IMG/VR virus record: IMGVR_UViG_3300037852_000225
Coordinates: 1-55,713 of that record
From: a virus
Strand: one strand, 5' to 3'
Length of the DNA: 55,713 nt
The notes beneath the pieces were generated by a model. It was not told the DNA's origin. It made no database searches and saw only the letters and a program-made list of their open reading frames with translations. The first letter of the stretch is position 1, and each line of letters starts with the position of its first letter. A program made the position numbers and the translations under genes. Below, one piece after another: positions 2,398 through 55,169 of this stretch.

Positions 2398-4875
2398 TCA
2401 AAAAGGAGATATCTCAATAAATTCCCGGCCACGTTCTTCGAGAGCAAATGTGTTTCTTCCTTTTGCGTCCTTATCAAAAATGAACCCATGGTGTGTTGCC
2501 CATTCGGACAGGGCTTTATTGATCCGGAAGGAAGTGAGCCTGAATTGATGGTTTATGCCGTTTTCGTTGCAGAATTTTTCGTAGAGGACTTTAAAAGTAT
2601 CATTGGAGATAAAGTTATTTTTCCAGTTATGCCAGTTTTCCTGTATAAATTCCCTCGTTGCCTGCATGTGGGACTGATCGAATTGTTTGGTCCAGCCGCC
2701 GTCTGTCAGGACTTTATCTGGTAATTTACCTTTAACGACCAGGTAGGATTGTATAGATTTAATGCAAATATTATCATATGCAAGCCATTCATACTGGTTC
2801 CAGTCTGATGGGAACATAGCGCCGAAGTGCTCGTTGACGCCTCCGCAGCGGGTGAAAAAATCAGTGAACTCGATTGGTCGGATCCTTCGGCGGATGCCGC
2901 CATCTGAAACTTCGTAAGAGAAGTTGGTGGATATTATGAACTTAGGCATTTTTTGAACAGGGACAGTTTGCTGATTTTGGAATAGTTTTTTAAGCATCCC
3001 GGATCCGGATGATAGTTCCTTAAGAAAGACAAAATCGAATTTTTTAGGGACATCGGATATCGACAATATCCGTTCGTAATTCCAGGATTGGAGGAATTTT
3101 TCATCAAACTGGACCTGTGTGCCAGGGATATTTTTAAAGGTAGTGCTGTGACCAAGTAGGGAGGCGAATATGTTTTTCCCTGATCCGCCGCCTTGTTTTG
3201 GGTCTTCACATTGCTCTGTAAGGACGATAATATACCCCATGTCTTCATCTTTATATTCATGGATCAGATACCCAATACATTGAAATACATAGATATTATG
3301 ACCAACACAGAGGTCAAGGAATTTATAATACATGGAGTCTTCAATTTCTTCCTGCGTTATAGTTTGGTAATCCCTTGGTGCAATCTGATGCTCGAAAATA
3401 AGCTGGCCAAGTGGTATTGGGTAAGGCTCAATCGATGGTGGTTGAAGTGATTTGATAGTGGCCCATCCGTTTTGGAAGAACTTATATGATATGTATTTAG
3501 TTGATTTTAAAAGCCTTGACTCATCGAGCTCTGGTAGTCTTGATATAGTGTAATCACCGCATGTTTGAACGAATGCTTCAAACGAGTTGGCTATTGCTTC
3601 ATATAAAAACAAATCTTCTTCCTGTATATAACTCTTCAAGGTATCCCATAAATACCTGGGAGTTCGCTGGATGACTTTAAATCCATCAATCTGATAAAGT
3701 TCCTGATTGTAGGTTACGAACTGGTAATGAGCAGCGCAATGGTATATGCCTTCACGGGAGATACTGATTTTTTTCTTATGCTCTCTCCAAAATACCCCAG
3801 CCGGGTATCGTTCATCGATGGATGCGCTGGCGATAATATAGGCATCTTGGGCCTCTGCACTGGCATTTTTTGGCAACGGGGTTCCATACATAGCGGCTTT
3901 TTCAACCAACCTAACCTCTACTTCCGCTTTTATTTTACCATATCCCTGTTCAACGAGATACCAAAAAGTTTTCTTTTTATCGCCGGCGAACTTAAGAATT
4001 GATAGTACGGATGCCGGTAAATACCCGCTATCAGGTTCAAATTCAGTGGATGAAGTGAAAATATAAAATACTCTTTTCAGTTTATTATAAGATGCAGATA
4101 CCCCAACTTCTTTTCCCGGGCGGGTGAAATACATGAAATTATTCGACTCATTAAGAAATTTCCACCCCCCATAGTCTACTAAAACCGTCGGCGCTTGGTC
4201 TGAATTATTGAAATGGTCCCATGGGTTCTCTGAATAATACTGGTTATCTGATTTAGAAGGAACGAATGGTTTCTGTATTTTAATTACCTCGTTATATGAA
4301 CGGCAAATGGTAATTAAACTATCACGCTCGGCTTTGGTTATTAACGGGATAGGGTTATTAAAATGAATGGAATACCCAAGTGATGGCGGCGCTACCACAT
4401 ACCCCCCCTCCCCCCTTGTTTCAATTCCTGCACGTTTCTGTCCTTCTTTGGTGGCAAGTTTGAGGTTACCTTCCGGGCCGCTGTCCGATATCCGGTAAAG
4501 AATATGAAAACCACCAGACGGGGTCTTGTGGATTCGTAGGGAATTAAACAGATCCGGATAAATTGCATTCAAGTCAGAGAATAATCTCCCGTCAATTCCA
4601 CTCCAGTGCTTTACATCAATATCAATAACCTCAAGATTACCAGACACTTTGCCGCAGATGATGGCTACCGCATTGGTTTTGGCTTTTTCAATATCTTTCC
4701 AAAGCTGGTCTTTGGTTATTATTTCAGACTGATATTTTTTCCACCCGAAGTATGGCTCTTTTTTTAAATGATTCCGGCCCGATATTTCCTCATCTTTATC
4801 CCTTACCGGGATCAGGGATATGCCATCGGATAATAAGGTTTCCACCTCGCTCCAGACTTCGGATAGAGAATCCAT
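2398..4875 (-). CDS. Primase-helicase: PrimPol domain plus superfamily 3 helicase
   Basis: An 825-residue replicative protein that should make primers and unwind DNA at the fork. The N-terminal archaeo-eukaryotic primase (PrimPol, bifunctional primase/polymerase type) shows the metal-binding VIDID (residues 83-87), then TPSGGFH (118-124) and ETRGEGGYVVAPPS (152-165). The C-terminal D5/SF3 helicase has Walker A GGGSGKN (562-568), a Walker B-like strand ending ISD (606-608) and the sensor strand FIISTN (646-651), followed by Arg-rich GGIRRRIRP and a C-terminal winged-helix region. Length and order match plasmid and phage primase-helicases. It is the largest gene of the leftward module and ends next to the iteron region, as expected for a protein acting at that origin. 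Confidence 0.9.
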   Translation of the reverse strand: MDSLSEVWSEVETLLSDGISLIPVRDKDEEISGRNHLKKEPYFGWKKYQSEIITKDQLWKDIEKAKTNAVAIICGKVSGNLEVIDIDVKHWSGIDGRLFSDLNAIYPDLFNSLRIHKTPSGGFHILYRISDSGPEGNLKLATKEGQKRAGIETRGEGGYVVAPPSLGYSIHFNNPIPLITKAERDSLITICRSYNEVIKIQKPFVPSKSDNQYYSENPWDHFNNSDQAPTVLVDYGGWKFLNESNNFMYFTRPGKEVGVSASYNKLKRVFYIFTSSTEFEPDSGYLPASVLSILKFAGDKKKTFWYLVEQGYGKIKAEVEVRLVEKAAMYGTPLPKNASAEAQDAYIIASASIDERYPAGVFWREHKKKISISREGIYHCAAHYQFVTYNQELYQIDGFKVIQRTPRYLWDTLKSYIQEEDLFLYEAIANSFEAFVQTCGDYTISRLPELDESRLLKSTKYISYKFFQNGWATIKSLQPPSIEPYPIPLGQLIFEHQIAPRDYQTITQEEIEDSMYYKFLDLCVGHNIYVFQCIGYLIHEYKDEDMGYIIVLTEQCEDPKQGGGSGKNIFASLLGHSTTFKNIPGTQVQFDEKFLQSWNYERILSISDVPKKFDFVFLKELSSGSGMLKKLFQNQQTVPVQKMPKFIISTNFSYEVSDGGIRRRIRPIEFTDFFTRCGGVNEHFGAMFPSDWNQYEWLAYDNICIKSIQSYLVVKGKLPDKVLTDGGWTKQFDQSHMQATREFIQENWHNWKNNFISNDTFKVLYEKFCNENGINHQFRLTSFRINKALSEWATHHGFIFDKDAKGRNTFALEERGREFIEISPF

Positions 4876-5888: not shown

Positions 5889-5948
5889 GAAATATTATTA
5901 ATTGAATAGTAAAGAAATATTATTAATTGAATAGTAAAGAAATATTAT
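5889..5948. repeat. 25-bp tandem repeat, 2.4 copies
   Basis: A 25-base unit starting GAAATATTATTAATTG is repeated exactly at 5889-5913 and 5914-5938, with a third copy broken off at 5948. The gene-distal copies lie in the gap before ssb, while the third copy encodes the last residues of the DnaA-like protein. It is probably slipped-strand duplication of the gene end, but the array is also AT-rich and sits beside a DNA-binding replication protein, so a binding role is possible. Confidence 0.85.
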
Positions 5949-6294
5949 TCTGAAGATTTGTTATTTGGTTTTTAATACTTGGGTCACTATCCATAAGATC
6001 CAGAATTGCATGTTTTGAATGAATAATACTGGTATGGTCCATGCCCATAAATATTTTACCTATCTGTGAAAGGGACAAGTTAGTGAATTTATACAGCATG
6101 AACATGGTGACCTGGCGAGCAAAGACTATTTCACGTTTTCTGTTTCTCTGCTTCATATCATCAAAAGAAATATTAAAAAAATTAGTGCAGTAGTCAATTA
6201 CCTTTTCTTCAGGGAATTTATCATCGATAACCGGAACAAGCCTGTACCTTTTGCCATCAATAATCACAATCATATTTAACGGGTCATTTTTCAT
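5923..6294 (-). CDS. Stand-alone DnaA domain IV (DnaA-box-binding) protein
   Basis: A 123-residue protein whose second half matches the C-terminal DNA-binding domain of DnaA: REIVFARQVTMFML (residues 54-67, the helix contacting the phosphate backbone), SLSQIGKIF (74-82) and the signature MDHTSIIHS (85-93), equivalent to GRDHTTVLHA in DnaA. There is no AAA+ ATPase domain, so it cannot melt DNA alone. It could load host DnaA or a phage helicase at an origin, block host initiation, or act as a regulator. Its ends overlap or abut neighbours in ATGA fashion (6291-6294), so it is expressed with the recombination genes. A perfect DnaA box lies at 7011-7019. Confidence 0.85.
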   Translation of the reverse strand: MKNDPLNMIVIIDGKRYRLVPVIDDKFPEEKVIDYCTNFFNISFDDMKQRNRKREIVFARQVTMFMLYKFTNLSLSQIGKIFMGMDHTSIIHSKHAILDLMDSDPSIKNQITNLQNNISLLFN

Positions 6295-6881
6295 TTGACC
6301 GTTACCTGGACTATAGTTGTGGATGATTTCGAAGGGGGATAAAGTGTAGCGAGTTCCCCTGTTTCAGGATCAAGAACTCCAATACCTGATTGGTCTACTG
6401 TTTTCAGAAATTCCTGCTGTTTTTTTATCACATCCCCGAGTTCTTTGTAATCTGCCATCAACTTAGTCAACCTATCATCCCCACATTTGGAGTAATCGTA
6501 TTTCACACCAGCCTCTTTTATCTGGAACTCTGAATTATGAAGGGTGAATTTCTTACCATATTTTTCAGCGGCAGCCAGTACCGCTGCTTTGTATTTGATG
6601 GCTGTATCAGGGTATTTATCAGCATCATTCAGCATACCAATCATCTGTTCCGTGCTCTTCAGTTGAAGGTGAATTTTAAGTGGGTCAACAACCCCTTCCT
6701 CGATTTGCCGGAGTATATCATGAGCGAACCGGATGCGCTCTTCTTTGATCGTATCGTACAGGAATTGTCTTTCCGGTCCTGTGGTTACTGATACTGATTG
6801 GGCTTCTGTGAGTGGGTACTGCCTGCTCTGGCGGTCTTCGTTCTCCCGCTCCTGCATGAATTGTTCGTTGCTTGATATCAT
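6291..6881 (-). CDS. Conserved-looking replication-module protein, unknown function
   Basis: A 196-residue, mostly helical, charged protein (DTIKEERIRFAHDILRQIEE, KYKAAVLAAAEKYGKKF, LTKLMADYKELGDVIKKQQEF) with an extended C-terminal tail. I recognise no catalytic motif. It overlaps the annealing-protein gene upstream and the DnaA-like gene downstream, each by ATGA, so it is almost certainly part of the same replication-recombination unit; an accessory or structural role there is the reasonable guess. The coiled, polar composition is compatible with a protein-protein adaptor. Confidence 0.65.
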   Translation of the reverse strand: MISSNEQFMQERENEDRQSRQYPLTEAQSVSVTTGPERQFLYDTIKEERIRFAHDILRQIEEGVVDPLKIHLQLKSTEQMIGMLNDADKYPDTAIKYKAAVLAAAEKYGKKFTLHNSEFQIKEAGVKYDYSKCGDDRLTKLMADYKELGDVIKKQQEFLKTVDQSGIGVLDPETGELATLYPPSKSSTTIVQVTVK

Positions 6882-7630
6882 GGCTTGGGCCCTCCTGCCT
6901 CTTGGAAGGCTTTTAAATTTTCCTGGGCTAATCCAGATTCAGCCGGCTCCCCATGAAGGGTTTGCTGTAGCAACTTACTCTGGGATTCAGAAAGTTCATA
7001 AGTTGCCAGTTTATCCACAATCGAAACCTCCCCAGCCAGGATCCGGTCAATGGCTTTTTTAAAGGCGGCATCTGTCATTGTTTGTTTTTGGATTGGTTTT
7101 GGAGCGTCCGGGTAAGGTTTCAGTTTGCTCCCAGTGGTAATATTTCCTTGGTCAGTATATTGAGCATCAACGGTTTCTATTTCCGTTTCATCCAAGGTCC
7201 CCATTCCGCAAATTGAAAGGGTAACCCTTCTTTTTGCTTTTGTTTCAGCCTTCATAAAAGCGTTTGCGAGGGCCTCCCCGGATAACCCCTGGATATTCAC
7301 AGCTCCCGTACTGGCATCTGCTTTGCCTTTAGAATCCTTAGCTTTGGCTGTTACGATGAATACCCCACGGATTTCTTCAGAGGTAATTTCGGTAATGGAA
7401 ATACCATGAATCTTACGAAGCTGTTCCGTAGCGTCCTTGGTGGCATATAGCATTTCCCGGCCCTGAAGTTTCAGGATTTTAAAAGGCTGTGTCAGAGGAT
7501 TTAAGCCAAGAGAATCACAGAATTGCTTGTAATAGGACACTTTCTGCTCTTCAGTCATCCCGGAAATATCCCCTTTAAGGACAAGGCTTGATAAAACCCC
7601 GTCTGGCTTGGTTGCGACTTGATTATTCAT
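6878..7630 (-). CDS. RecT/Red-beta-like single-strand annealing protein
   Basis: A 250-residue protein resembling phage annealing recombinases. Visible marks are QFCDSLGLNPLTQPFKIL (about 36-53, cf. the Cys...LNP...Q segment of Bet/RecT), MKAETKAKRRVTLSICGMG (126-144, cf. the KA-x-TKA-x-RRA helix) and DETEIETV. Such proteins pair complementary single strands during recombination and phage DNA repair and usually work with SSB and a nuclease, both encoded just downstream. The last third is low-complexity and charged. The exact family within the RecT/Erf/Rad52 set cannot be settled by eye. Confidence 0.75.
   Translation of the reverse strand: MNNQVATKPDGVLSSLVLKGDISGMTEEQKVSYYKQFCDSLGLNPLTQPFKILKLQGREMLYATKDATEQLRKIHGISITEITSEEIRGVFIVTAKAKDSKGKADASTGAVNIQGLSGEALANAFMKAETKAKRRVTLSICGMGTLDETEIETVDAQYTDQGNITTGSKLKPYPDAPKPIQKQTMTDAAFKKAIDRILAGEVSIVDKLATYELSESQSKLLQQTLHGEPAESGLAQENLKAFQEAGGPKP
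7011..7019 (+). promoter_or_regulatory. Perfect DnaA box TTATCCACA
   Basis: The consensus DnaA box occurs inside the annealing-protein gene. The coding constraint (VDKL) alone can create it, and I see no cluster around it, so it may be chance. It is noted because the neighbouring operon encodes a DnaA domain IV protein. Confidence 0.35.
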
Positions 7631-7648
7631 GATTTATAATTTACTGGT

Positions 7649-7864
7649 TTACAATACTGGTTTTTGCCCAGTGTGATTTACATTCAGACTGCCAATCAGG
7701 ACTTTTGATAATTGTTCGGTGTATTCTTTCCTAAGTTCTTCAAGAATAGTAGCTTCGCTTTGCAGTCCGAGGTCCGCTATTGCAGCGATGGCTTTATTGA
7801 ATTTTGCCCGGAGTGCGGACTCCTGTTTTCTGATTTCTTTGGTGTCAATAATTTTTTCTAACAT
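7649..7864 (-). CDS. Small helical protein, first gene of replication operon
   Basis: A 71-residue protein that is almost entirely predicted helix (MLEKIIDTKEIRKQESALRA..., ILEELRKEYTEQLSKVL) with a short polar tail. I recognise no family. It is the promoter-proximal gene of the leftward operon, about 33 nt downstream of the expected start site of the promoter at 7904-7935, so it is made early and in quantity. Candidates are a small regulator or a host-takeover protein. It is followed by a short gap and then the annealing protein. Confidence 0.6.
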   Translation of the reverse strand: MLEKIIDTKEIRKQESALRAKFNKAIAAIADLGLQSEATILEELRKEYTEQLSKVLIGSLNVNHTGQKPVL

Positions 7865-7903
7865 GGTTTACGTGTTTAACTGGTGATGACAAAGTGTGGG
7901 AAA

Positions 7904-7935
7904 CAAATATAAGCACCGATTTGGTACTATCCAAA
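7904..7935 (-). promoter_or_regulatory. Bacteroidota-type promoter for the replication operon
   Basis: On the minus strand: -33 box TTTG (7932-7935), 20-base spacer, -7 box TATATTTG (7904-7911), matching TTTG-N19-21-TAnnTTTG exactly. Transcription should start near 7897 and read the gene starting at 7864. It overlaps the divergent promoter by 16 bases. Confidence 0.8.
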
Positions 7936-7936
7936 T
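7919..7936. promoter_or_regulatory. Inverted repeat ATTTGG-N6-CCAAAT, candidate operator
   Basis: Perfect 6-bp arms (7919-7924 and 7931-7936) with spacer TACTAT. The left arm contains the -33 box of the rightward promoter and the right arm contains that of the leftward promoter. A dimeric regulator bound here would contact both -33 elements. The ribbon-helix-helix gene starting 31 bases further right is the obvious candidate. Confidence 0.6.
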
Positions 7937-7951
7937 AATTCTATAGTTTTG
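7920..7951 (+). promoter_or_regulatory. Bacteroidota-type promoter for the RHH regulator
   Basis: TTTG (7920-7923), 20-base spacer, TAGTTTTG (7944-7951), an exact match to TTTG-N20-TAnnTTTG. The start site should fall near 7958, leaving a leader of only about 9 nt before the ATG at 7967. The -33 box is embedded in ATTTGGTAC, a 9-mer found again at the second RHH promoter (19244-19252). Confidence 0.8.
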
Positions 7952-7966
7952 TTGAAATTATTTTTT

Positions 7967-8113
7967 ATGCCGTTAGCAGTAAACCTTAGAATTTTAAAAA
8001 AGGCACATTGGGAGAAGTTAAAAAAGGTGGCTAAGAAACGAAGGATGTCAGCCAATTCCCTACTCAATGAGCTGATTGAGAACTGTGTAAAAAATGGTAC
8101 CTTTAAATCTTAA
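7967..8113 (+). CDS. Ribbon-helix-helix transcription regulator (48 aa)
   Basis: A 48-residue protein with the Arc/CopG-type plan: a short beta strand (LAVNLRILKK), helix A (HWEKLKKVAKKRR), a turn (MSAN) and helix B (SLLNELIENCVKNG). Such proteins act as dimers that insert a two-stranded sheet into the major groove. It sits immediately downstream of two overlapping divergent promoters and an inverted repeat, so it most likely represses or switches the replication operon and itself. The ATG at 7967 lies about 9 nt behind the predicted transcription start. A second RHH gene occupies the same position at 19076-19204. Confidence 0.8.
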   Translation: MPLAVNLRILKKAHWEKLKKVAKKRRMSANSLLNELIENCVKNGTFKS

Positions 8114-8123
8114 AATAAAAGTT

Positions 8124-8351
8124 ATGAAGCGAATTATTTTGGCTGTCTGCCTTTTTTTCTTACTTTCCTCCGAAACCTGCAATGACCAGTCCGCAAGCAA
8201 GTCAGGTTCCGGCACCACAACGAATGGCAGTCATCCCCATTCCAACACCAGGGTTCCATTTACGGCCAAATGGGCTCTTTTGGTGGTAGGATCCGGCGCC
8301 GCCATATATTGGATGATAAAAAGGGAGAGCAGGCGCGTAAGTAATATATAA
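8124..8351 (+). CDS. Small membrane protein with signal-like N-terminus
   Basis: 75 residues starting at MKRIILAVCLFFLL: a hydrophobic N-terminal segment (4-14) followed by Cys19, a Ser/Thr/Gly/His-rich extracytoplasmic linker, a second hydrophobic segment (residues 50-65, WALLVVGSGAAIYWMI) and a basic tail. The residues before Cys19 (SET) are not a good lipobox. The frame is open from 8094, but MKR at 8124 gives the natural signal. Two membrane segments and position beside a peptidase gene make a holin- or spanin-like lysis role possible; nothing proves it. Confidence 0.55.
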   Translation: MKRIILAVCLFFLLSSETCNDQSASKSGSGTTTNGSHPHSNTRVPFTAKWALLVVGSGAAIYWMIKRESRRVSNI

Positions 8352-8422: not shown

Positions 8423-8944
8423 ATGGACTTATTCGGGAAAGAAAAAAAGGAGTTGATAGATATTATTGACAACCTTTCGGTTACCGTGATGAAACAAGCG
8501 GGAGCGATTTCGGATATAGTAAGTTCAAAAAATCAGAATGTAAGATTAGTTCTAACAACATCCATTAATAATTCAATTTTTATTATTATGTCTATTAATT
8601 TAAGTGCAAAGCAATTTTCTATTGATTCTTTAGGATTGGTTGATACCGATACCGGACTTGCAGTAGTTGCAACCTTTGCTAATCAGACGTTTACAAGCGA
8701 TAACCCGGCCATCTTTACGTCTACGCAAGATCCTGCAAACCCGAATCAATCAAAGGATGTTGCTATAGCCGCTGGTAATGCAAATTTGCTTGCCACCGCT
8801 GATGCTACCTATACTGATTCGAAGACAGGATTATCAGTAACAAAGACTGGACTAAAAGTAAGCGTCCCTGTAATAATTTCCGCTGTAGTAGCTGGAGAAA
8901 ATGTTGCTTTGGTTATAAATCAGGGGACACCACAAGCGCAGTAG
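8423..8944 (+). CDS. Beta-rich small virion-like or adhesion-like protein
   Basis: A 173-residue frame with two unlike parts. Residues 1-40 are charged and helical (MDLFGKEKKELIDIIDNLSV). From MSINLSAKQF (ATG at 8588) the sequence is beta-rich and Ala/Thr/Asn-rich (GLAVVATFANQTFTSDNPAIFTS, AIAAGNANLLATADATYTDS, VPVIISAVVAGENVALVIN), like an Ig-like or small decoration domain. The stretch before 8588 is AT-rich like a leader, so the true protein may be only 118 residues, with a separate short peptide upstream. Bacteroidota phages commonly carry similar one-domain proteins. The function is unknown. Confidence 0.55.
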   Translation: MDLFGKEKKELIDIIDNLSVTVMKQAGAISDIVSSKNQNVRLVLTTSINNSIFIIMSINLSAKQFSIDSLGLVDTDTGLAVVATFANQTFTSDNPAIFTSTQDPANPNQSKDVAIAAGNANLLATADATYTDSKTGLSVTKTGLKVSVPVIISAVVAGENVALVINQGTPQAQ

Positions 8945-8963: not shown

Positions 8964-8993
8964 AACCACCCTGCTTTTTTAGTGGGGTTTTCT
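8964..8993 (+). terminator. Weak intrinsic terminator-like hairpin
   Basis: CCAC (8966-8969) can pair with GTGG (8982-8985) across a T-rich loop, followed by GGTTTTCTTG. The stem is only 4 bp, so this is a weak call, but its position between two genes is right. Confidence 0.3.
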
Positions 8994-18812: not shown

Positions 18813-19079
18813 TTATTTGGCTTCTTCAACTACTAAATAAATTTCAGATGCGTTCATGAGTTTGTATTTTTCATCATCATACCACTGAACGACACCCAAG
18901 TGTGACGGATAACTTACAATTTCGCCTTTTTTAATGACATCTGACGCAGATGCCATTACTATTGCATCCTCCATGATCTCTGTTACTGTACCTGGAATTA
19001 AAATTCCTCCTTTTGACCTTTCAGGCATCGGTAGTGGCTTTACGATTACCCTATCAAAGACTGGGCGGGGTATGCTCAT
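18813..19079 (-). CDS. GroES-type co-chaperonin
   Basis: 88 residues with the GroES plan: FDRVIVKPLPMPERSKGGILIPGT (start strand, mobile loop and IPG), VMASASDVIKKGEIVSYPSHLG (central strands; KGE in place of the usual VGD) and YKLMNASEIYLVVEE (the usual final strands). It should cap the GroEL ring, as gp31 does in T4, to help fold bulky phage proteins. Coupled by ATGA to the RHH regulator upstream, so it is made early under that promoter. Slightly shorter than host GroES (about 95 residues). Confidence 0.85.
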   Translation of the reverse strand: MSIPRPVFDRVIVKPLPMPERSKGGILIPGTVTEIMEDAIVMASASDVIKKGEIVSYPSHLGVVQWYDDEKYKLMNASEIYLVVEEAK

Positions 19080-19204
19080 TTTGAAAAGAATTTTATTATG
19101 ATAAACCGAATGAAAGCGGCTACAGTATTGAATCCATATTTCTCCTTGTTTCTGTTTAATTTTTCTATTAATTTTTGGTCAATAAAAAAATTAAACCGCC
19201 TCAT
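19076..19204 (-). CDS. Ribbon-helix-helix transcription regulator (42 aa)
   Basis: 42 residues with a start strand (MRRFNFFID), helix A (QKLIEKLNRNKEKYG), turn (FNTVA) and helix B (AFIRFIIIKFF): a minimal RHH fold. The stop overlaps the groES start (ATGA). Its ATG lies about 9 nt behind the predicted start site of the promoter at 19220-19251, exactly the arrangement of the RHH gene at 7967. It probably controls its own operon and perhaps the rightward virion genes that begin on the other side of this gap. Confidence 0.75.
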   Translation of the reverse strand: MRRFNFFIDQKLIEKLNRNKEKYGFNTVAAFIRFIIIKFFSK

Positions 19205-19219
19205 TAAGTTATTTTTTTA

Positions 19220-19251
19220 TAAATGTATGTAGTTTGTGCGTAGGTACCAAA
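19220..19251 (-). promoter_or_regulatory. Promoter of the RHH-groES-glycan operon
   Basis: Minus strand: TTTG (19248-19251), 20-base spacer, TACATTTA (19220-19227), one mismatch from TAnnTTTG. The -33 box is inside ATTTGGTAC (19244-19252), the same 9-mer at the same place as in the promoter of the first RHH gene (7919-7927). Confidence 0.65.
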
Positions 19252-19259
19252 TTTATTTT

Positions 19260-19267
19260 TATATTTG
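19260..19267 (+). promoter_or_regulatory. Possible -7 box for rightward virion transcription
   Basis: TATATTTG is a perfect -7 element, but the nearest upstream TTTG (19233-19236) is 23 bases away rather than 19-21, and the ATG of the first gene follows 3 bases later. Either the mRNA is nearly leaderless, or this promoter needs a phage factor, or the match is chance. Confidence 0.3.
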
Positions 19268-19270
19268 CTT

Positions 19271-19597
19271 ATGGCGCACCCTATCTATATAACCTTCAAA
19301 TTTGAGGAAGATTTGTTTATATGCCAGTGCAAATGGCCACATTACATCTGCAAAGTGGAGCATAAGCCAAATCAAAAAATCCACTCTATTCAGGTGGCAG
19401 GCTATGAAATTTACTGCAACTTCGCTGGAACTCTGGCCGGGTATTATGTTCCAATGGATAAAGCTAAGGTTGCCGAGATTCCAAAGGTATTTGAAGAAAT
19501 GGCGATATTTTATTTAATAGAAAGGATAGGTAAATTCCCAAAAAGGTATGAAAAGTATAAAATCCCCAGTGCAAGAAGTACCGGTAGCACCGCGTAA
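19271..19597 (+). CDS. Hypothetical protein opening the virion operon
   Basis: 108 residues (MAHPIYITFKFEEDLFICQCKW...), beta-rich at first and helical later (KAKVAEIPKVFEEMAIFYLI). I chose ATG 19271 rather than the TTG at 19265. No family recognised. Five cysteines (one CQC pair), without a standard zinc motif. It overlaps the tandem GroES-like gene by 50 bases and is the first gene right of the divergent regulatory region, so it may have a regulatory or chaperone-related task. Confidence 0.55.
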   Translation: MAHPIYITFKFEEDLFICQCKWPHYICKVEHKPNQKIHSIQVAGYEIYCNFAGTLAGYYVPMDKAKVAEIPKVFEEMAIFYLIERIGKFPKRYEKYKIPSARSTGSTA

Positions 19598-20228
19598 CAA
19601 CGTGATTGTCAAAATTTCGCAGCGTTTTTACGATTCCGTGAAGTTTGATTCAGGCGTCGTCCTTTATTTCGATCCGTCCTGGGATCCGTCAGAATATGCG
19701 ATGCTTGAAGGGGTCGTTGAATCTGTGCCAAGATCAATCATGAAACGAAAGGACTATGAAGGATTTTCGGCAGATGGCATCAAGCGTGGCGACAGGATAC
19801 TTTTCAGGTATGATGTAATTTTTTCATATTTATCGCAACCGGACCGTGATTCAGTGAGGTTTAAGAATGAAATATGGTGGCATGAAACATCCTACTGGAA
19901 AGTTGATATTCAGAAAATATTCTGTACCGTTCACGGCGATGCCAAAAGTTTCAGCGGCCTAAAATATTCTATGCTTAACGGGTACGTCCTGTGCGACCTG
20001 ATTACAGAATACAAGTCAGACCTGTATTCCGACAACATTATCCGACCGGAATCTGAAAAAATGGTGGTAAGGCTGGACCGTGCAAAAGTGAAAGCTATTG
20101 GTGAAAACAACCTTGAAGTTCAGCCGGGAGATACGATCTGGTTTTCTCCAAAAATACCGCAGGTGTACTCCCTTAACCGTAAAAAATTCATCATCGTCAG
20201 CCAAAGGCATATATTGGCTGTAACATAA
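19548..20228 (+). CDS. Tandem GroES-like (double co-chaperonin-like) protein
   Basis: 226 residues that read as two GroES-like halves. First half: PRNNVIVKISQRFYDSVKFDSGVVL, then EGVVESVPRS, IKRGDRILFRYDVI and YWKVDIQKIFCTV. Second half: LNGYVLCDLITEYKSDLYSDNI, KAKVKAIGENNLEVQPGDTIWFSP and KKFIIVSQRHILAVT. Each has the start strand, a long mobile-loop-like insert, a GD turn (RGD, PGD) and the final I/V-rich strands of co-chaperonins. With the single-domain GroES divergent from it, the phage carries two co-chaperonin-type genes. It may cap GroEL in a modified way or may be a structural protein that reuses the fold. Confidence 0.6.
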   Translation: MKSIKSPVQEVPVAPRNNVIVKISQRFYDSVKFDSGVVLYFDPSWDPSEYAMLEGVVESVPRSIMKRKDYEGFSADGIKRGDRILFRYDVIFSYLSQPDRDSVRFKNEIWWHETSYWKVDIQKIFCTVHGDAKSFSGLKYSMLNGYVLCDLITEYKSDLYSDNIIRPESEKMVVRLDRAKVKAIGENNLEVQPGDTIWFSPKIPQVYSLNRKKFIIVSQRHILAVT

Positions 20229-42246: not shown

Positions 42247-44561
42247 CATCAACGCAAAATAACTATGACGAACAGGGGCCGTGGTTTTTCCCACGGCATG
42301 ATATCGATCCAAAAGACAAGGACGAAGCATGGGCCCGGTCCTATGCCTGGGCGGCATGGCATGATTTTACGGCGGCGGTTCCAAAGTCGGTATTCTATAA
42401 TTCGTATGACAAATATGAGCAGTACAGGCTGTATGCTTTAAGTAAGCAGCCGATCAATGTTTACAGGGAACTGATGGGAATTGACGAGGAGCAGAAAGAT
42501 ACGTTTATGCCGATAGACTGGACGGCGCCAGCTTTTGTAAGTAAATATAGGAGTATTGCTATTTCAAGGTTGGTACAGCAGGAATATGGAATTGTCTGCA
42601 CACCCATTGATCCCACTGCCAAAGGAGAACTGGCTAAACTGTATGCAAAACTGAAAGCTAAAATTGCTGTGCGCCAGATGATGCAGCAGCAGAATCCTGA
42701 ACTGGCGCAGCATCCGGCAGTGCAACCCGCTGGTAATGAGCCATGGGATGAAGAGGAACTGCAAATGCGAATAGATTTTGGGGAACAGTTTAACCGGGCA
42801 AAGGATGCGGAAGAAGCTATTGCATTGGCATTTTACGAGAATGGTGTCAAAGAGGTTAGAAAAAAATGGTTTGAAGATTTCTTCGACTGCGGAGTAGCTG
42901 GGTATTATGAAGGACTGGACGATCACAGTAGGCCATACTTCCGGTTTATAGACCCAGAATGTATTGTCACCAATTACTGCAAGTTCAAAGACTTCCGTGA
43001 CTTGCAACATGCGGGAGAAGTGATTGACGTTTCGATAACTGACCTTGCCACCAAAACAAAGTCAGACGGGACGCCTATCTTCACAGACGAACAATTACTC
43101 GACCTTGGGACAAATGTAGCCGGCAAATGGAATAATCCTTCATTTGTCAGTCGGAGCACATCTTACTATAAAGGCTATGACCATTTTAAATGCAAGGTGC
43201 TGCAACTTGAATTTTTCTCATACAATGATATCGTATGGAAGGATTCTACCAACTGGAATGGGAATATCACTTTTAAAGAGTCAAAGTATAGCAATCTAAA
43301 CAGAGATGTGCCAAATACTGAAAAAAATACAAAATATACCAGTAAAAAAATAAAGGTCGTATACAAAATAAACTGGGTAGTGGGAACTAATTATTCCTAT
43401 GGATTCGAGCTTAAAAAGAATCAAAAAAGGTCAGTCAACCCAAAGAAAATGGGGGAAACGGAGTTGTCATACCGCTTTTATGCCCCTAATTTCTACCAGA
43501 TGAGAGCCCAGGGACAGATGGAGAAACTGATTCCATTTATCGACCAGTGCTGCCTTACCTGGTACAGGATACAGAATTTCAAAGCCAGAATGGTCCCTTC
43601 AGGATGGTGGATAGACCTCGCTGCATTGGAGCAGGTGGCTCTAAGCAAAGGAGGAGAGAACATGACATCCAAACAGCTTATTAATATGTTCTTCCAGTCC
43701 GGGATTTTGGCTGGCCGTTCGGATCTCATGGGAGACATTAATAATCCGAATTACAAACCTATTATCCCAATAGAAAACAGTGTTGCACAGGAACTTGCCG
43801 GACTATATCAAGATTTGGAGATGAATATCAATAAGATTGAAGGGATATGCGGTTTTAATGCTGTGACCATGGGGGGTGACACCAGAAGGACGCCTGTGCC
43901 AGGGGTTGAAAGCGCCAATGTATCGACCGACAACGCGCTATTCGAGATGGCAAATGGAGAGAGGTTTTTGCTTGAAAAACTTGCCGAAGATATGGTAAAA
44001 CGCATACAGCAGTCTGTTAAACTGACTGGGTATGAAGGATACGCGCCTGCCTTGAATAAGAGCACATTGCAATTTATATCCGTTTCAAAAGACCTTCCAC
44101 TTCGGGATTATGGAATAATGACTGAAGAGCGTCCGACTGATAATGAAAGACAATTCCTGATTCAAAATTCCCAGCAGGACCGGGCAGCGGGGTTCCTTGA
44201 TACATCGGATATGATGATACTGCTTAATACGTATAATTTCAAGCAGGCCCAGGAAATGATAGCCCTAAAGGTTAAGAAAAATAAGCAGGCCCAGGCAGCG
44301 GAAAAACAGGCAATTACCGCCCAGACCATTCAAGGGCAACAGCAATCGGCGCAGGTATCCGGTCAGATTCAAATGCAGCTTGAGCAAATGAAAGAACAAT
44401 CCGCCATGGAACTGGCGAATGTTACTGGTAGGTTTAACACCATCATAGCCGAGATAAAAGCGAAACAACTCGCCCAAGCAGCGGAATGGAAAACACAGAT
44501 GGAGCTTATTCAGCATATTATTCCACCGGCACAACAGTCTGAACAGGCGGCAGCACAATGA
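42243..44561 (+). CDS. Portal protein
   Basis: 772 residues after TerL. Wing/stem features: an early Trp-rich segment (ARSYAWAAWHDFTAAV), the DRCSP-like middle with RFIDPECIVTNY and a long C-terminal helix rich in Gln/Ala (KKNKQAQAAEKQAITAQTIQGQ...), as in portals of large Bacteroidota podoviruses. Twelve copies would form the entry ring for the DNA. The assignment rests mainly on size, gene order and composition. Stop overlaps the next ATG (ATGA). Confidence 0.75.
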   Translation: MTSTQNNYDEQGPWFFPRHDIDPKDKDEAWARSYAWAAWHDFTAAVPKSVFYNSYDKYEQYRLYALSKQPINVYRELMGIDEEQKDTFMPIDWTAPAFVSKYRSIAISRLVQQEYGIVCTPIDPTAKGELAKLYAKLKAKIAVRQMMQQQNPELAQHPAVQPAGNEPWDEEELQMRIDFGEQFNRAKDAEEAIALAFYENGVKEVRKKWFEDFFDCGVAGYYEGLDDHSRPYFRFIDPECIVTNYCKFKDFRDLQHAGEVIDVSITDLATKTKSDGTPIFTDEQLLDLGTNVAGKWNNPSFVSRSTSYYKGYDHFKCKVLQLEFFSYNDIVWKDSTNWNGNITFKESKYSNLNRDVPNTEKNTKYTSKKIKVVYKINWVVGTNYSYGFELKKNQKRSVNPKKMGETELSYRFYAPNFYQMRAQGQMEKLIPFIDQCCLTWYRIQNFKARMVPSGWWIDLAALEQVALSKGGENMTSKQLINMFFQSGILAGRSDLMGDINNPNYKPIIPIENSVAQELAGLYQDLEMNINKIEGICGFNAVTMGGDTRRTPVPGVESANVSTDNALFEMANGERFLLEKLAEDMVKRIQQSVKLTGYEGYAPALNKSTLQFISVSKDLPLRDYGIMTEERPTDNERQFLIQNSQQDRAAGFLDTSDMMILLNTYNFKQAQEMIALKVKKNKQAQAAEKQAITAQTIQGQQQSAQVSGQIQMQLEQMKEQSAMELANVTGRFNTIIAEIKAKQLAQAAEWKTQMELIQHIIPPAQQSEQAAAQ

Positions 44562-44782
44562 TAACACATCCAGCCATATCAAGAAGCAAAAAACCAACTT
44601 ATCCGGCGGACCATAAACCAGCAATGGAGGTCCCGAGGGGAGGTTCCTGCTGCGCGAACTGCCGCTTCTGGGACGGGGAAGATTGCGAGAACGGACACTA
44701 TAGAAAATGGAATAATGGAAGTGGCGATATACCAACCGATCCAGATAAATTTTGTTCTGACTGGTACGAACCTAAAAAATAA
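44558..44782 (+). CDS. Small Cys-rich (HiPIP-like) protein after portal
   Basis: 74 residues with GGSCCANCRFWDGEDCENGHY and PDKFCSDWYEP: five or more cysteines with the spacing of small phage proteins that resemble high-potential iron-sulfur or zinc-knuckle proteins. Similar short proteins occur next to portals in Bacteroidota phages. It overlaps the portal gene by ATGA. The role is unknown; it may bind a metal and stabilise a head component. Confidence 0.6.
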   Translation: MITHPAISRSKKPTYPADHKPAMEVPRGGSCCANCRFWDGEDCENGHYRKWNNGSGDIPTDPDKFCSDWYEPKK

Positions 44783-44794
44783 ATTTTTAAAAAA

Positions 44795-44813
44795 AGCCCA
44801 GTGTCCCTGGGCT
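44795..44813 (-). terminator. Strong hairpin oriented as a leftward terminator
   Basis: AGCCCAG (44795-44801) and CTGGGCT (44807-44813) pair perfectly across TGTCC. Read on the minus strand the stem is followed by seven T residues (44788-44794), i.e. a textbook intrinsic terminator for leftward transcripts. On the plus strand there is no T run after the stem. Confidence 0.65.
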
Positions 44814-44823
44814 ATGGCCCGAA

Positions 44824-44892
44824 TTAACGGGTAAAAGTCCAGGTTCCCGCTGGAGCGTCGGTAAAGTGAATATAAAGAATTTTATTTTTTAT
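44824..44892 (-). pseudogene. Tail of a decayed minus-strand gene
   Basis: Upstream of the terminator the minus strand reads IKNKILYIHFTDAPAGTWTFTR and then stops (TAA near 44824), with a stop and no start codon before it. The FTDAPAGTWTFTR segment is convincingly protein-like (beta-domain end). It looks like the surviving 3' end of a gene from another phage, brought in with its terminator. The rest of the 44783-44918 gap holds nothing else. Confidence 0.4.
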
Positions 44893-44918
44893 TCAAAATA
44901 TTATTTAACTTTACTTCT

Positions 44919-45206
44919 GTGCCATGTTATTACAAAAGAGTTGATGCCGAACAATTTGTACTCACAAGTGCGAATAAACAAGGTATCCTCCGTGGAGAAA
45001 ATATACAATTTCAATCGACCCCGGTAAAGCATGACAGCGGAAGATTTTTTGTAATGATACACCATAAAGAGGCGTTTGTGAAAGTGGAAGAAGGACAATG
45101 GCTTGTAAAACATGATAACGGTATTTGGGAGACAGTTTATCCCGACAGGTTTAAAGATAAATTCGTTTCCGAAGACGTTGTAAACCAAAACATCGAAGAT
45201 GCCTGA
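44919..45206 (+). CDS. Small beta-rich head-region protein
   Basis: 95 residues (MPCYYKRVDAEQFVLTSANK...) rich in strands and aromatic residues (RFFVMIHHKEAFVKVEEGQWLVKHDNGIWETVYP). Short proteins of this appearance often lie between portal and scaffold genes. No known motif. Overlaps the scaffold candidate by 8 bases. Confidence 0.55.
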   Translation: MPCYYKRVDAEQFVLTSANKQGILRGENIQFQSTPVKHDSGRFFVMIHHKEAFVKVEEGQWLVKHDNGIWETVYPDRFKDKFVSEDVVNQNIEDA

Positions 45207-46326
45207 AGACGTAGCAACATTAGAAGCCCCAGCCAAAGAGACAGCAGAGCAAGAACAGCCGAATATAGCGGCTATTATTGCAAAACAAGGGGTTCAGACA
45301 ACAAAGGATAATACGGTAGATATACCGGATATTAAGATAAAAAAAGAGGAACCGGCAACGGCCCAAAAGCAAGAGGAACCTAAGACTGAGGCAGTCCCAA
45401 AAGAAACTCCTGCTCCCGAGCAAAAACCGATCTCTCAAGCACAGCCAGAGCAGCCGAAGCAGGCCGTACAACCTGAAGAAGCCAACTGGCAAGAAGTTCT
45501 CAAAAAACAACCGGAAATCGAAATTCTGAAGGCAATAGGGCTGGATGAGAAGATGGCCGGGTTGATTCAAAAGTGGAAATCAGGAGGGGATGTAACAGCT
45601 TATTTAAAAGAAGCCGCTACAGATTATTCAAAGATGACAGGTGAACAGTTGATGAGGCATCAGCTTAAATCTGATTATCCGGAGTTATCTGACGAAGACT
45701 TCGAGGAGCTTTACGAATCCAAGGTGACCGACACCTACAAACTCGACCCCAACATGTATTCTGAAAAAGATGTTAAAAGGGGTAAGATTTTGCTGAATGC
45801 GGATACCAAAAAGATTCGTGATGCACTTGTAGAAAAACAGAAGCAGTACATTCTTGATTCGAAGCCTCCTGAAGTAAAACCTGACCCTGCCATTGCGCAG
45901 GCAGAAGCCGCCTTGAAGCAATCCATTGAGAATTATCAAAAAGAGATTAAGGGGAGCAGTATATATAATGGTATCACAAAGGATAAAAAGCTGTCCATTG
46001 AAATCGAAGGTCAGAAGTTTAACTGGGAGATACCAGATATTAATAAGTATGAAGGGGTTATGTTTGACACCAAGAAATGGGGTGAAGCTATGCTGACAGA
46101 AAAGGGGGAATGGGACCATGAGCAGCAGGCAGTCCTTGGTGCAGTAGCCACAGATTGGAAAGGATTCCTTAATTCACTTGCGAAATTCTACATCGATATT
46201 GGCAAAAAACAGACCGCAGATTTAATTGAAAATGCCAAGCTGCCAGGAGACACAACAGCGAAACCTGAAGCAAAATCTACACCAGTAGCAGCCCTCGCCA
46301 AATCAGGAAACATCGTTTCCGGTTAG
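45199..46326 (+). CDS. Scaffold-like protein preceding capsid gene
   Basis: 375 residues, strongly acidic and helical: Pro/Glu/Ala/Gln-rich first third (KEETPAPEQ-type), a middle with ADTKKIRDALVEKQKQYILD, and a helical end (GEAMLTEKGEWDHEQQAVLGAV). It lacks enzyme motifs. Scaffold proteins, which shape the prohead and then leave, have this composition and usually precede the capsid gene, as here. The stop is TAG, 36 bases before the capsid ATG. Confidence 0.65.
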   Translation: MPEDVATLEAPAKETAEQEQPNIAAIIAKQGVQTTKDNTVDIPDIKIKKEEPATAQKQEEPKTEAVPKETPAPEQKPISQAQPEQPKQAVQPEEANWQEVLKKQPEIEILKAIGLDEKMAGLIQKWKSGGDVTAYLKEAATDYSKMTGEQLMRHQLKSDYPELSDEDFEELYESKVTDTYKLDPNMYSEKDVKRGKILLNADTKKIRDALVEKQKQYILDSKPPEVKPDPAIAQAEAALKQSIENYQKEIKGSSIYNGITKDKKLSIEIEGQKFNWEIPDINKYEGVMFDTKKWGEAMLTEKGEWDHEQQAVLGAVATDWKGFLNSLAKFYIDIGKKQTADLIENAKLPGDTTAKPEAKSTPVAALAKSGNIVSG

Positions 46327-46362
46327 TAAACATATATTACTAACCCGTTAAATTCTTACAAA

Positions 46363-47700
46363 ATGGCGATCACGCAAGGGACGCTGAACAAACAGTTCGT
46401 GTCCGCAATCAGCTTCCTCGACCAGAGGGAAATAAATCCCAATTTAATTGACCAGTCCAGAGATGCCACTTTCGTAAATATTATGAAACTGGTAGGGCGC
46501 ACAAAGCCCACCTCCGTTCCGATATACAACTACTTTGTTAACAACGATGTATTTGCAACCGGCGTGGTAAACTCTGTATCCTCTGGCTATGGTACTTCTA
46601 TCATAGTATTGGTCCTTACCGCAGCTTCAGGTGGCTATTCCAGACAGGGAGACTGCGTTCGGTTTTCAAATGCCAACGATATTGGCCGCATGGGCCTTAT
46701 CACGAATGTATCCAGCGCATCAAGCGTTGATACCATTACAGTACAGGCTGTTGACGGAAGCCCACTGTATGCTGTTGGAAACGATACGATTGGCTTCATA
46801 AGCAATGCGAATGAAGAACAGTCCGATAAAAAGGCCAACCGCAAAATCGGGGTTACCCGGTTTATTAACCAAGTTCAAATTTTCAAAGAAATAGATGAAA
46901 TTTCTGACGTACAGAAAGTGTCAAAAGTTGAGGTGACCGTTGAAGGCCAGCCTTATTACACCCCTGTAAGTCACATATACAAGGTGAATACCTTAAACGG
47001 AATGATAAGTTCCGCATGTATCCAGGGTGTTCAGTCCGTAACCTTGTTCAGTGATACAAACCCTGTTTTAACGCTTAACAACCGCCCAGTCCAGACTACC
47101 ATGGGCATGGATCAGTATATCAGCACTTTTGGTGCCACTGACCAGGTTGCAACGCTCGGCACCGTCCTTTTGGGGGATGTGGCCAAGATGATTGACAACT
47201 TCATCGCAAACAAGGCCCCGCTTCAGCAAATGGGATTCTCCGGCACGAAAGCGAAGCGTCCATGGTCAAACCTGATGAAAAATTTAGGGTCTTCTGGTAT
47301 TACCTCCGTTCGGTTGGTTATCGATGGAAGGGATGCGGACCTTGAAATAATGAAATGGGAATATTCCAATGCCGAAATGGAATTTGTTCACCTGCCTATT
47401 TTCGATCACCCACAACTGTTCTCACCAACTGTTGTTCCTGATATCGTTGGCAGCATTTACTGGATACCAAAAGACAAGGTAAATGTCGTCGGCGGAGGCA
47501 TGGAAGGACGGCTGCAACTGCGGTATCTTCCAAAGGCCATGGCTGGTGGAACAAGCAACGGTCTTATCACAGAATGGTATACCGGCGCACTGGCTCCTAC
47601 GCCTACATCTTCCGAACAGGTATTCCGCACAGAGTGGATTGCCAATGTCGGTCTTGAAATGTACGGTGTCAAGCACATGCAGAAATACCGTTCAGCATAA
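46363..47700 (+). CDS. Major capsid protein
   Basis: 445 residues, beta-rich and evenly composed, after a scaffold candidate and before an intrinsic terminator, with regular use of common codons as expected for the most abundant virion protein. A N-terminal arm (ISFLDQREINPNLIDQSRDATFVNIMKLVG), a long helix-like stretch (LGTVLLGDVAKMIDNFIANK) and a C-terminal YRSA end are compatible with an HK97 fold. The fold itself cannot be proven by eye. Confidence 0.75.
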   Translation: MAITQGTLNKQFVSAISFLDQREINPNLIDQSRDATFVNIMKLVGRTKPTSVPIYNYFVNNDVFATGVVNSVSSGYGTSIIVLVLTAASGGYSRQGDCVRFSNANDIGRMGLITNVSSASSVDTITVQAVDGSPLYAVGNDTIGFISNANEEQSDKKANRKIGVTRFINQVQIFKEIDEISDVQKVSKVEVTVEGQPYYTPVSHIYKVNTLNGMISSACIQGVQSVTLFSDTNPVLTLNNRPVQTTMGMDQYISTFGATDQVATLGTVLLGDVAKMIDNFIANKAPLQQMGFSGTKAKRPWSNLMKNLGSSGITSVRLVIDGRDADLEIMKWEYSNAEMEFVHLPIFDHPQLFSPTVVPDIVGSIYWIPKDKVNVVGGGMEGRLQLRYLPKAMAGGTSNGLITEWYTGALAPTPTSSEQVFRTEWIANVGLEMYGVKHMQKYRSA

Positions 47701-53800: not shown

Positions 53801-54839
53801 TGCGAGTAGTGGTTTGATGGCTTTTCAAACTGCAACAGGATATACTTTTGATAATCTCGTTCAGCATCTTAATGTAGGCGGCGCTAATGGAGCTTCTGAA
53901 TTTGATTTAATGAGAAGCGATAATACCCCTTTGATGTTTAAACAATACGGAGCCACTTTTACAAACTATAACAACAGATTCAGACTGGCTTATAATGACG
54001 GTACTAATGACATAATGGTTATCCTTCCAAAAAATACCACTACTAATAATCACGATATTCAGCTAGGAGCCATATCAGGAGGAAACTATGCAGATCAGGG
54101 CGGGTCAATGCTTCAGGTATATGGCGGCCTTTACACACAGGCTGATTTTTATTCCGCAGCCGTTCAGGGAACTTCTTATCTCGTAGATAATACGACAATT
54201 TCCGATCCGGTAACAGCTAATAGCGGAACAAGGCCTAGAGTTTCAAATGTGGCTTTTCTTCAGTCCACACTAACAGCTACGCATACGGCAGTTGTATATA
54301 CTGTTGGCAGTAGCTTGTTCGTTCAGGGTCCGCCGATAGCAAGTACAAACGTAACGATAACAAATCCTTACGCTATTGAAATAGGATCAGGATCGCTTTC
54401 AATAGATTTCGATGCTACGCATAACACAACTTTTTCTACAAATTCAACTGGCAATTTAGTAATCACTCCTTCTTCAACGGCTATTATGCCAAACGCAAAT
54501 ATCTCTTACGATTTAGGAACGTCTGCTGCTAACTGGAGAAATGTATATGTAGGCGCTGTCATAGGGGCAAATAATAACGGAGGCGATGCTAATACTTCTA
54601 TTGGTGCTGCTTCTACGACACAGAAACTTCCAACTGTAACTGCTAACCGGACAGTTACGCTTCCGACGATGATACAAGGTCAATGGATTGATATTCTTGT
54701 AACCAATACATCAGGAACATTCCATTGGAGTTTCACTAATACGGTTATTGATATGAGTGGCAACACAATCACAAATCTGGTTAATGGTACAGCCTACAGA
54801 ATTTATTGGGACGGAACAAATTATATAAAAGGAAATTAA
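50844..54839 (+). CDS. Large tail fibre protein with signal-peptide-like start
   Basis: 1331 residues, Gly/Ser/Thr/Asn-rich, made of many short strands (GNGGGTGGIGTVTNFIFTQANG, ILPNANISYDLGTSAANWRNVYV), with the fibre-specific NGRVGVV segment (residues 93-99) and a C-terminus like other fibre tips (TVTLPTMIQGQWIDILVTN). The N-terminus MKKLIIILLLFGSAYGQ reads as a type I signal peptide, rare in virion proteins and so either secretion of the protein or mimicry of one; an internal start at a later Met is the alternative. The 3' third (from about 53.27 kb) is more AT-rich. Confidence 0.65.
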   Translation: MKKLIIILLLFGSAYGQNISVIQGLGGPTTEIWVKGVLKIDTAMVWPSKDTLFTPSQIFTVVVRPQDKTPYMWIGVRWVAFALTGGTYVNSFNGRVGVVIPSNGDYTAAMVTNAVDQTQVYNDPTWLNSLSYSKLIAVPATQTFLSGYGVNVTGGPAFSFKFDSATVHPVTNIIKVNDSTIGFTINNRPTQTILIRGNGGGTGGIGTVTNFIFTQANGISGSVTTSTSTPNLTLGTSVNGLVSGNGVAFLPTVIGAGLSYVGTTLTNTIINNNQLANGSNFISNISGLVQPGTGPITLTGAGTQGNPYVISVGASVGGGGSSDSLKHLFVDTSAAPRNGFVLTFDSVNHKWYLSSKGGGAGGSVTQFAFTNGAGFTGSVSNPTTTPTLSLTMQNAVADGATKGIAAFTTNDFLSASGVISLNYAAGQKATGSVPGFLSATDWTTFNNKFSGTLANGSIFIGNISNLATAQVMSGDATLSNTGVITISNSAVTYAKMQNETSATMLGRYAGTNGVVQEITIGNGIALNSGTGVLSVRINAPLIFSSGIITADTTMTNTSLVTYYQLTHGVRDSIFVLNAGSAITRIGWASGSDTIYLGGLKNSSNINWSKGTDSTETAQLTTTGVTAGSYVNVSATVDAFGRITAMSNGSGGTVVSSVSSTLSSITFSPTTGAVLGDINLGHANSWTAAQSFAVLNASNTVTFTGTTFNAGGTKFDVMIQDTTTGILYREPYWQTDTTGYAAGNLFVKFNGTKFILSAGSGGGTQNFESVLSQAPTRLLQDHSNTWNNHIWTNDSLGSWKYPHPVASLSSPVFYIAPDSNTNPNNIVILRVDQIHKKNNYAPFMMEMLPTGNGDGTDDYVYAYGFNIDQIYDANALSFSRRMEYRYLNTLMEEHLQLSLPGREIWREQSVTVSTSDSIKRSTGLEAHQINAIEFRSLAGQGAGAYVAFNDNLAATTANVTISEATAANFNLQTGSSGQYTGSIVMLAASSGLMAFQTATGYTFDNLVQHLNVGGANGASEFDLMRSDNTPLMFKQYGATFTNYNNRFRLAYNDGTNDIMVILPKNTTTNNHDIQLGAISGGNYADQGGSMLQVYGGLYTQADFYSAAVQGTSYLVDNTTISDPVTANSGTRPRVSNVAFLQSTLTATHTAVVYTVGSSLFVQGPPIASTNVTITNPYAIEIGSGSLSIDFDATHNTTFSTNSTGNLVITPSSTAIMPNANISYDLGTSAANWRNVYVGAVIGANNNGGDANTSIGAASTTQKLPTVTANRTVTLPTMIQGQWIDILVTNTSGTFHWSFTNTVIDMSGNTITNLVNGTAYRIYWDGTNYIKGN

Positions 54840-54845
54840 TAAGCC

Positions 54846-55169
54846 ATGAGCAATATAGAAGGAGTGCAGTTAATCACAGCAGCAGGGTCGGTTACGATAA
54901 GTAACGGAGTGAAAATTGTTTATGTAAACCCTGCTTCACTACTCGCAACGCTTGTGCCTACTTTTCCGGCAAATGCTAATGACCTTGACGAATTGTGGTT
55001 TCATTACGGAGGAACAATACTGACAGGGGTAGCCGTTGTAACAGCGCAGACGCTTACTCCAAATTCCGGACAGTCAATCGTTGGAACATTGCTTACCGCA
55101 CCACTCGGAGGAAGCTGTACTGCGTTCAGGTATAGGGGCGCAAATACAACATGGTATAAAATAGTATAG
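54846..55169 (+). CDS. Small fibre-associated protein
   Basis: 107 residues, beta-rich (GVQLITAAGSVTISNGVKIVYVN, ELWFHYGGTILTGVAVVTAQTLTPN) without signal peptide. Starts six bases after the fibre gene and has the size and composition of tail fibre assembly or tip proteins. No specific family recognised. Confidence 0.5.
   Translation: MSNIEGVQLITAAGSVTISNGVKIVYVNPASLLATLVPTFPANANDLDELWFHYGGTILTGVAVVTAQTLTPNSGQSIVGTLLTAPLGGSCTAFRYRGANTTWYKIV

Follow-up and report, generated by a model that had tools for sequence, protein, structure and literature searches.

Interlocked divergent promoters of Bacteroidetes type between the replication-side operon and a short rightward operon of a phage: a candidate switch

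How might a phage apportion transcription between two operons that lead away from a single short junction? This question is raised by IMG/VR virus record IMGVR_UViG_3300037852_000225, whose 55,713 nucleotides were analyzed as a whole (hereafter the window), and in which a 102-bp divergent junction (7865-7966) holds two promoter sequences facing outward. The 48 bp at 7904-7951 read CAAATATA-AGCACCGA-TTTG-GTACTATC-CAAA-TAATTCTA-TAGTTTTG, with the general form CAAATATA-N8-TTTG-N8-CAAA-N8-TAGTTTTG, all three gaps being 8 bp long. The leftward and rightward promoters overlap by 16 bp (7920-7935), and each -33 box lies in the middle of the spacer of the partner promoter.

7911-7904, minus strand: -7 box of the leftward promoter, TATATTTG, exact TAnnTTTG consensus
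7935-7932, minus strand: -33 box of the leftward promoter, TTTG, 20 bp from the leftward -7 box
7920-7923, plus strand: -33 box of the rightward promoter, TTTG, 20 bp from the rightward -7 box
7944-7951, plus strand: -7 box of the rightward promoter, TAGTTTTG, exact TAnnTTTG consensus
7899, minus strand: predicted leftward transcription start, from a box at -12 to -5; leader 35 nt
7956, plus strand: predicted rightward transcription start, from a box at -12 to -5; leader 11 nt

Both promoters carry the two Bacteroidetes sigma-A features, TAnnTTTG at -7 and TTTG near -33, at a spacing of about 20 bp. The -33 TTTG consensus of Bacteroidetes promoters has been described (PMC7366714), and TAnnTTTG has been reported at -12 to -5 in Flavobacterium (PMC9723704). 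A distance of 57 bp separates the predicted starts, and the predicted leaders are plausible in view of the median leader lengths of 24-32 in the phylum (PMC9723704, PMC7366714). A sequence-only reading of this DNA had described the leftward and rightward TTTG-N20 promoters, their 16-bp overlap and their outward orientation between the replication-side and rightward operons, all of which are present as described, and the starts that it placed at 7897 and 7958 differ from those predicted here by at most 2 nt. From the promoter type and the relatives of the phage, the host is taken as a member of the Bacteroidetes.

The genes on the two sides of the junction are listed below.

7649-7864, minus strand: 71-aa ORF, no function given, first leftward gene
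6878-7630, minus strand: 250-aa conserved phage protein, 45-60% identity in many phages
5923-6294, minus strand: DnaA C-terminal-domain protein (PF08299, E 2e-20)
2398-4875, minus strand: primase/polymerase with helicase-like C-terminal region (PF09250, E 5e-14; phrog_19930, E 5e-48)
7967-8113, plus strand: 48-aa ORF, Arc-type ribbon-helix-helix (RHH)-like, first rightward gene, with an ATG start 31 bases past the inverted repeat at 7919-7936
8124-8351, plus strand: 75-aa small membrane-type protein, as read from the sequence, second gene
8423-8944, plus strand: 173-aa ORF, no function given, third gene
8968-8988, plus strand: terminator-like hairpin ending the rightward operon

The primase is probably part of the leftward operon, and the 250-aa protein, encoded beside replication genes and without significant Pfam, PHROG or NCBIfam matches, is possibly a recombination protein. 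Downstream of the hairpin lie genes for a papain-family peptidase and then an HNH/AP2 endonuclease. The 48-aa ORF had been read from the sequence as an RHH regulator gene; its position is as stated, and it matches an Arc-like repressor profile (phrog_3180, E 1.1e-5; also phrog_582, E 0.002), but the match to Pfam RHH_4 (E 0.005, 17.2 bits) falls under the cut-off of 25. A single-sequence structure model was uninformative (pTM 0.31, one long helix), no RHH match was found among solved structures, and no relatives were found in viral contigs. The only genome match, L099, was rejected as a relative, being 20 residues inside an unrelated 258-aa protein. The RHH-like 48-aa protein is probably a tuner of the promoter pair.

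Apart from these two promoters, the window has no exact TTTG-N19-21-TAnnTTTG match on either strand. Since a second-order Markov model gives about 1.3 exact matches per window, either promoter singly could be due to chance. Their co-occurrence in the junction is beyond chance: when the 102-nt junction was shuffled 200,000 times, a promoter on both strands came up once (5e-6), and no interlocked pair of any kind appeared in 400 simulated Markov windows. By the strands of the ORFs, divergent junctions occur at two places in the window, near 7865-7966 and 19080-19270. The latter also contains an interlocked promoter pair (19220-19267) with one mismatch in each promoter, which is near chance; a GroES-like gene leads leftward from it and a structural operon rightward, and two GroES-like co-chaperonin genes (18813-19079 and 19548-20228; phrog_3188 and phrog_13932) flank it.

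Symmetry in the junction could suggest an operator, and two inverted repeats were considered.

7919-7936: inverted repeat ATTTGG-TACTAT-CCAAAT, mostly the two opposed -33 boxes; putative operator, unsupported beyond chance
7933-7963: inverted repeat AAATAATT/AATTATTT, flanking the rightward -7 box; near chance (8% of shuffles)

The repeat at 7919-7936 had been proposed earlier from the letters alone; it exists, with the -33 boxes in its arms, but the operator role given to it was not borne out, because any two opposed TTTG boxes with 8 bp between them yield it once two base pairs are added. With both -33 boxes fixed, 6-bp arms appeared in 8% of random fills, and when the boxes were not fixed, arms of at least 6 bp (gap up to 10) appeared in 39% of shuffled junctions. 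Symmetry extends to 3 of the 14 pairs outside the boxes, equal to the random expectation, the center of the repeat is asymmetric, and no further copy was found elsewhere in the window. The inverted repeat was thus dropped as operator evidence, as shuffles give comparable symmetry and none is left outside the boxes. A phage-wide operator ATTTGGTAC was likewise rejected: its two exact copies (7919 and 19244) both lie in divergent junctions, but a shared 9-mer is near chance, and copies with one mismatch occur in the window at a chance number. RHH repressors usually bind as pairs of dimers, with half-sites about one turn apart, so that control of both directions by one bound dimer, as had been suggested, is unlikely.

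The interlocked layout recurs in unrelated viruses. With an 8-bp center it was found at no fewer than 80 loci in viral contigs; among the matches listed, 44 have gaps of 8/8, 14 have 9/9 and 22 are scattered over other combinations. As most loci fall in two families, loci were merged into families by common proteins (single-linkage BLAST), and at this level the 8/8 gaps are present in 5 families and other gap combinations in 1-2 (among the matches listed). Of the 78 family-level counts, 34 have both spacers at 19-21 bp, where uniform spacing would give 14 (P 2.5e-7, among the matches listed); working promoters would give such an excess, and it suggests that many of the matched promoters are real. 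Selection on pairing itself could not be retained for the viral contigs, since independent spacers predict 33 counts with both in range for the 34 observed (among the matches listed). The 8-8-8 spacing is not unique either, as scans with 6- and 10-bp centers likewise favored 19-21-bp spacers (for 6 bp, among the matches listed). Divergent placement showed no clear difference between families with both spacers in range (11/34) and other families (9/42), among the matches listed. In 396 genomes of the phylum Bacteroidota, to which the Bacteroidales genome G008 (source of L099) belongs, the broad pattern gave 1 match and the backward control pattern also 1. A second family, with 9/9 gaps (L119, L120 and others; 16 contigs, among the matches listed), has two divergent ORFs, one of 77 aa and HTH-like, the other of 58 aa and with its ATG 5 nt past a -7-like box.

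The largest family among the matches listed, family A (L116-L195), is unrelated to the window phage, and its symmetric 48-mer lies between a UvrD-like helicase gene (phrog_1967) and a divergent ORF of 184-191 aa. Family A and the window pair have the same 48-bp layout, CAAAnnTA-N8-TTTG-N8-CAAA-N8-TAnnTTTG, but differ in the genes served, in the palindromic center of family A and in the ATGs, which in most members of family A are close to the -7 boxes. In the 18 distinct sequences listed, the boxes are invariant, as fixed by the search design, and the center tends to a palindrome (positions 22/27, 89%; positions 24/25, 78%). In the 26 listed family A loci with both ORFs, most ATGs are 5-7 nt past the -7 box on both sides, so that the mRNAs would apparently be leaderless in both directions.

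Among phage records no DNA match to the window was found. The closest phage found, G003, has identities of 57% in the terminase, 49% in the primase and 52% in the 250-aa protein, and carries two divergent ORFs just upstream of the 250-aa gene and primase.

54166-54582, minus strand: leftward ORF of G003, weak HTH matches
54751-54990, plus strand: rightward ORF of G003, without family

A palindrome, GATCACATGTGATC, lies in the junction between these ORFs; with the divergent arrangement it gives the equivalent place in both phages the look of a control junction, the proteins being different. The exact interlocked pair was absent from G001-G005, of which G001 and G002 have essentially only the primase in common with the window, and no close relative that conserves the junction was found. 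Another 15 loci with the 250-aa protein were rejected for junction alignment, being too distant and arranged differently. G003 contains a phage integrase (41996-43363, L102:3996-5363; PF00589, E 8e-10), which suggests a temperate relative; no integrase was found among the window proteins tested. At L102:5472-7750 and L102:7920-9014 (record about 43472-47014) it also has a CRISPR array and, adjoining it, a Cas12f gene (PADLOC, E 9e-46); the array has degenerate repeats of about 36 nt, GTTGTGACTTCCTTTCAAAATTAAGCTTCCTACAAC, at a 66-nt period, two of its spacers match G003 itself at 93-96%, and the array is either phage-borne or in flanking host DNA.

Given the geometry and the neighboring genes, we lean towards the view that the junction holds a mutually exclusive promoter pair, which by polymerase occlusion would set the replication operon against the short rightward operon, with the RHH-like protein as autoregulator. 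Two interlocked host-type (Bacteroidetes sigma-A) promoters would occupy 7904-7951. RNA polymerase bound in one direction should cover the opposite promoter, and two polymerases could hardly bind together, so that the pair would share out initiation between left and right. Leftward transcription would serve the 71-aa ORF, the 250-aa protein, the DnaA C-terminal-domain protein and probably the primase, and the right arm of the switch would comprise the RHH-like protein, the small membrane protein, the 173-aa protein and the terminator. The RHH-like protein would most likely act as an autoregulator at or near the junction and shift the balance, probably by reducing rightward starts as its level rises. 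Such a switch needs no repressor, since competition for RNA polymerase can be enough to make the promoters mutually exclusive; of the compact switch envisaged earlier, the overlapping outward promoters between the two operons stand, but the repeat as the binding site of a regulator is not supported.

Three other explanations were weighed. Polymerase competition may be all that operates; the overlap would then reflect mere compaction or a balance that is constitutive, and the RHH-like protein would act elsewhere or bind no DNA. We regard this as possible without expecting it: the shuffle tests gave no operator signal and the RHH evidence (profile scores, structure model) is modest, but a phage junction with replication genes on one side and a small gene of DNA-binding type on the other is usually under regulation, and G003 has an HTH-like ORF at the equivalent place. 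In E. coli, competition for polymerase alone can couple divergent promoters if one is strong (PMC12825309), which is consistent with this explanation. That one promoter is active and its partner a chance match, as the roughly 1.3 exact matches expected per window would allow, is quite improbable, since both are perfect, both have 20-bp spacers, both are aimed at an adjacent gene and their joint frequency is 5e-6.

Alternatively, the RHH protein might bind ATTTGG-N6-CCAAAT, cover both -33 boxes and repress both directions, like P22 immI. The arms beyond the boxes are at chance level (8%), the center is asymmetric, there is no second copy in the window and no homologue with a conserved site was found, all of which make this account unlikely, even though the RHH-like ORF begins at a distance of 31 bp and would head the rightward transcript. 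The arms are 12 bp apart from center to center, which fits two RHH dimers, and the unrelated family A has a more palindromic center at the same place (TTTGGTTATAACCAAA-like, for example), which also speaks for a repressor. Beyond the occlusion-based pair that we favor for this locus, a tentative generalization, which we would not count as probable, is that interlocked symmetric divergent promoters might be a recurrent, selected control element of Bacteroidetes phages, whose constant spacing would turn polymerase into the switch between two gene blocks, with different small regulators (RHH-like here, HTH-like in G003) as tuners.

Control of gene expression in Bacteroidetes phages appears little studied in the literature searched, in which no transcription maps of these phages were found. 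If our reading is true, a mutually exclusive pair within 48 bp would let the phage switch in a simple way between its replication genes and other genes, and would offer Bacteroidetes genetics a compact building block; the start sites gain in interest because the layout turns up again in unrelated phages, one version of it conserved and apparently leaderless. In phage P22, the immI region (Arc/Mnt) has the divergent promoters Pant and Pmnt, one of whose operons begins with a small gene of Arc type. The window resembles it in its divergent phage promoters and in the small Arc-like gene leading one operon, but a second repressor gene or antirepressor was not seen here and operator binding is putative.

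Experiments on overlapping or bidirectional promoters show that strength or regulation in one direction can turn such a pair into a switch (PMC4207663, PMC12825309). The Pc/Pr promoters of the Bacillus plasmid pLS20 are overlapping and divergent as here, polymerase cannot occupy both, and a regulator gene adjoins them, as does, as a candidate only, the RHH-like ORF in the right arm (PMC4207663). In pLS20, however, each promoter is presumed to have its -10 and -35 boxes at the same positions as its partner, and regulation is by an Xre protein that acts with looping, whereas here the boxes are unshared and interlocked with 8-bp gaps, and the candidate regulator is RHH-like (PMC4207663). The bidirectional promoters of E. 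coli likewise consist of symmetric DNA that takes polymerase either way, one binding excluding the other, but they share a -10 element and their starts are mostly 18 (also 10 or 23) bp apart (PMC12825309); the window pair has no shared element and predicted starts 57 bp apart. With these likenesses and differences, the window pair joins the known class of overlapping divergent promoters.
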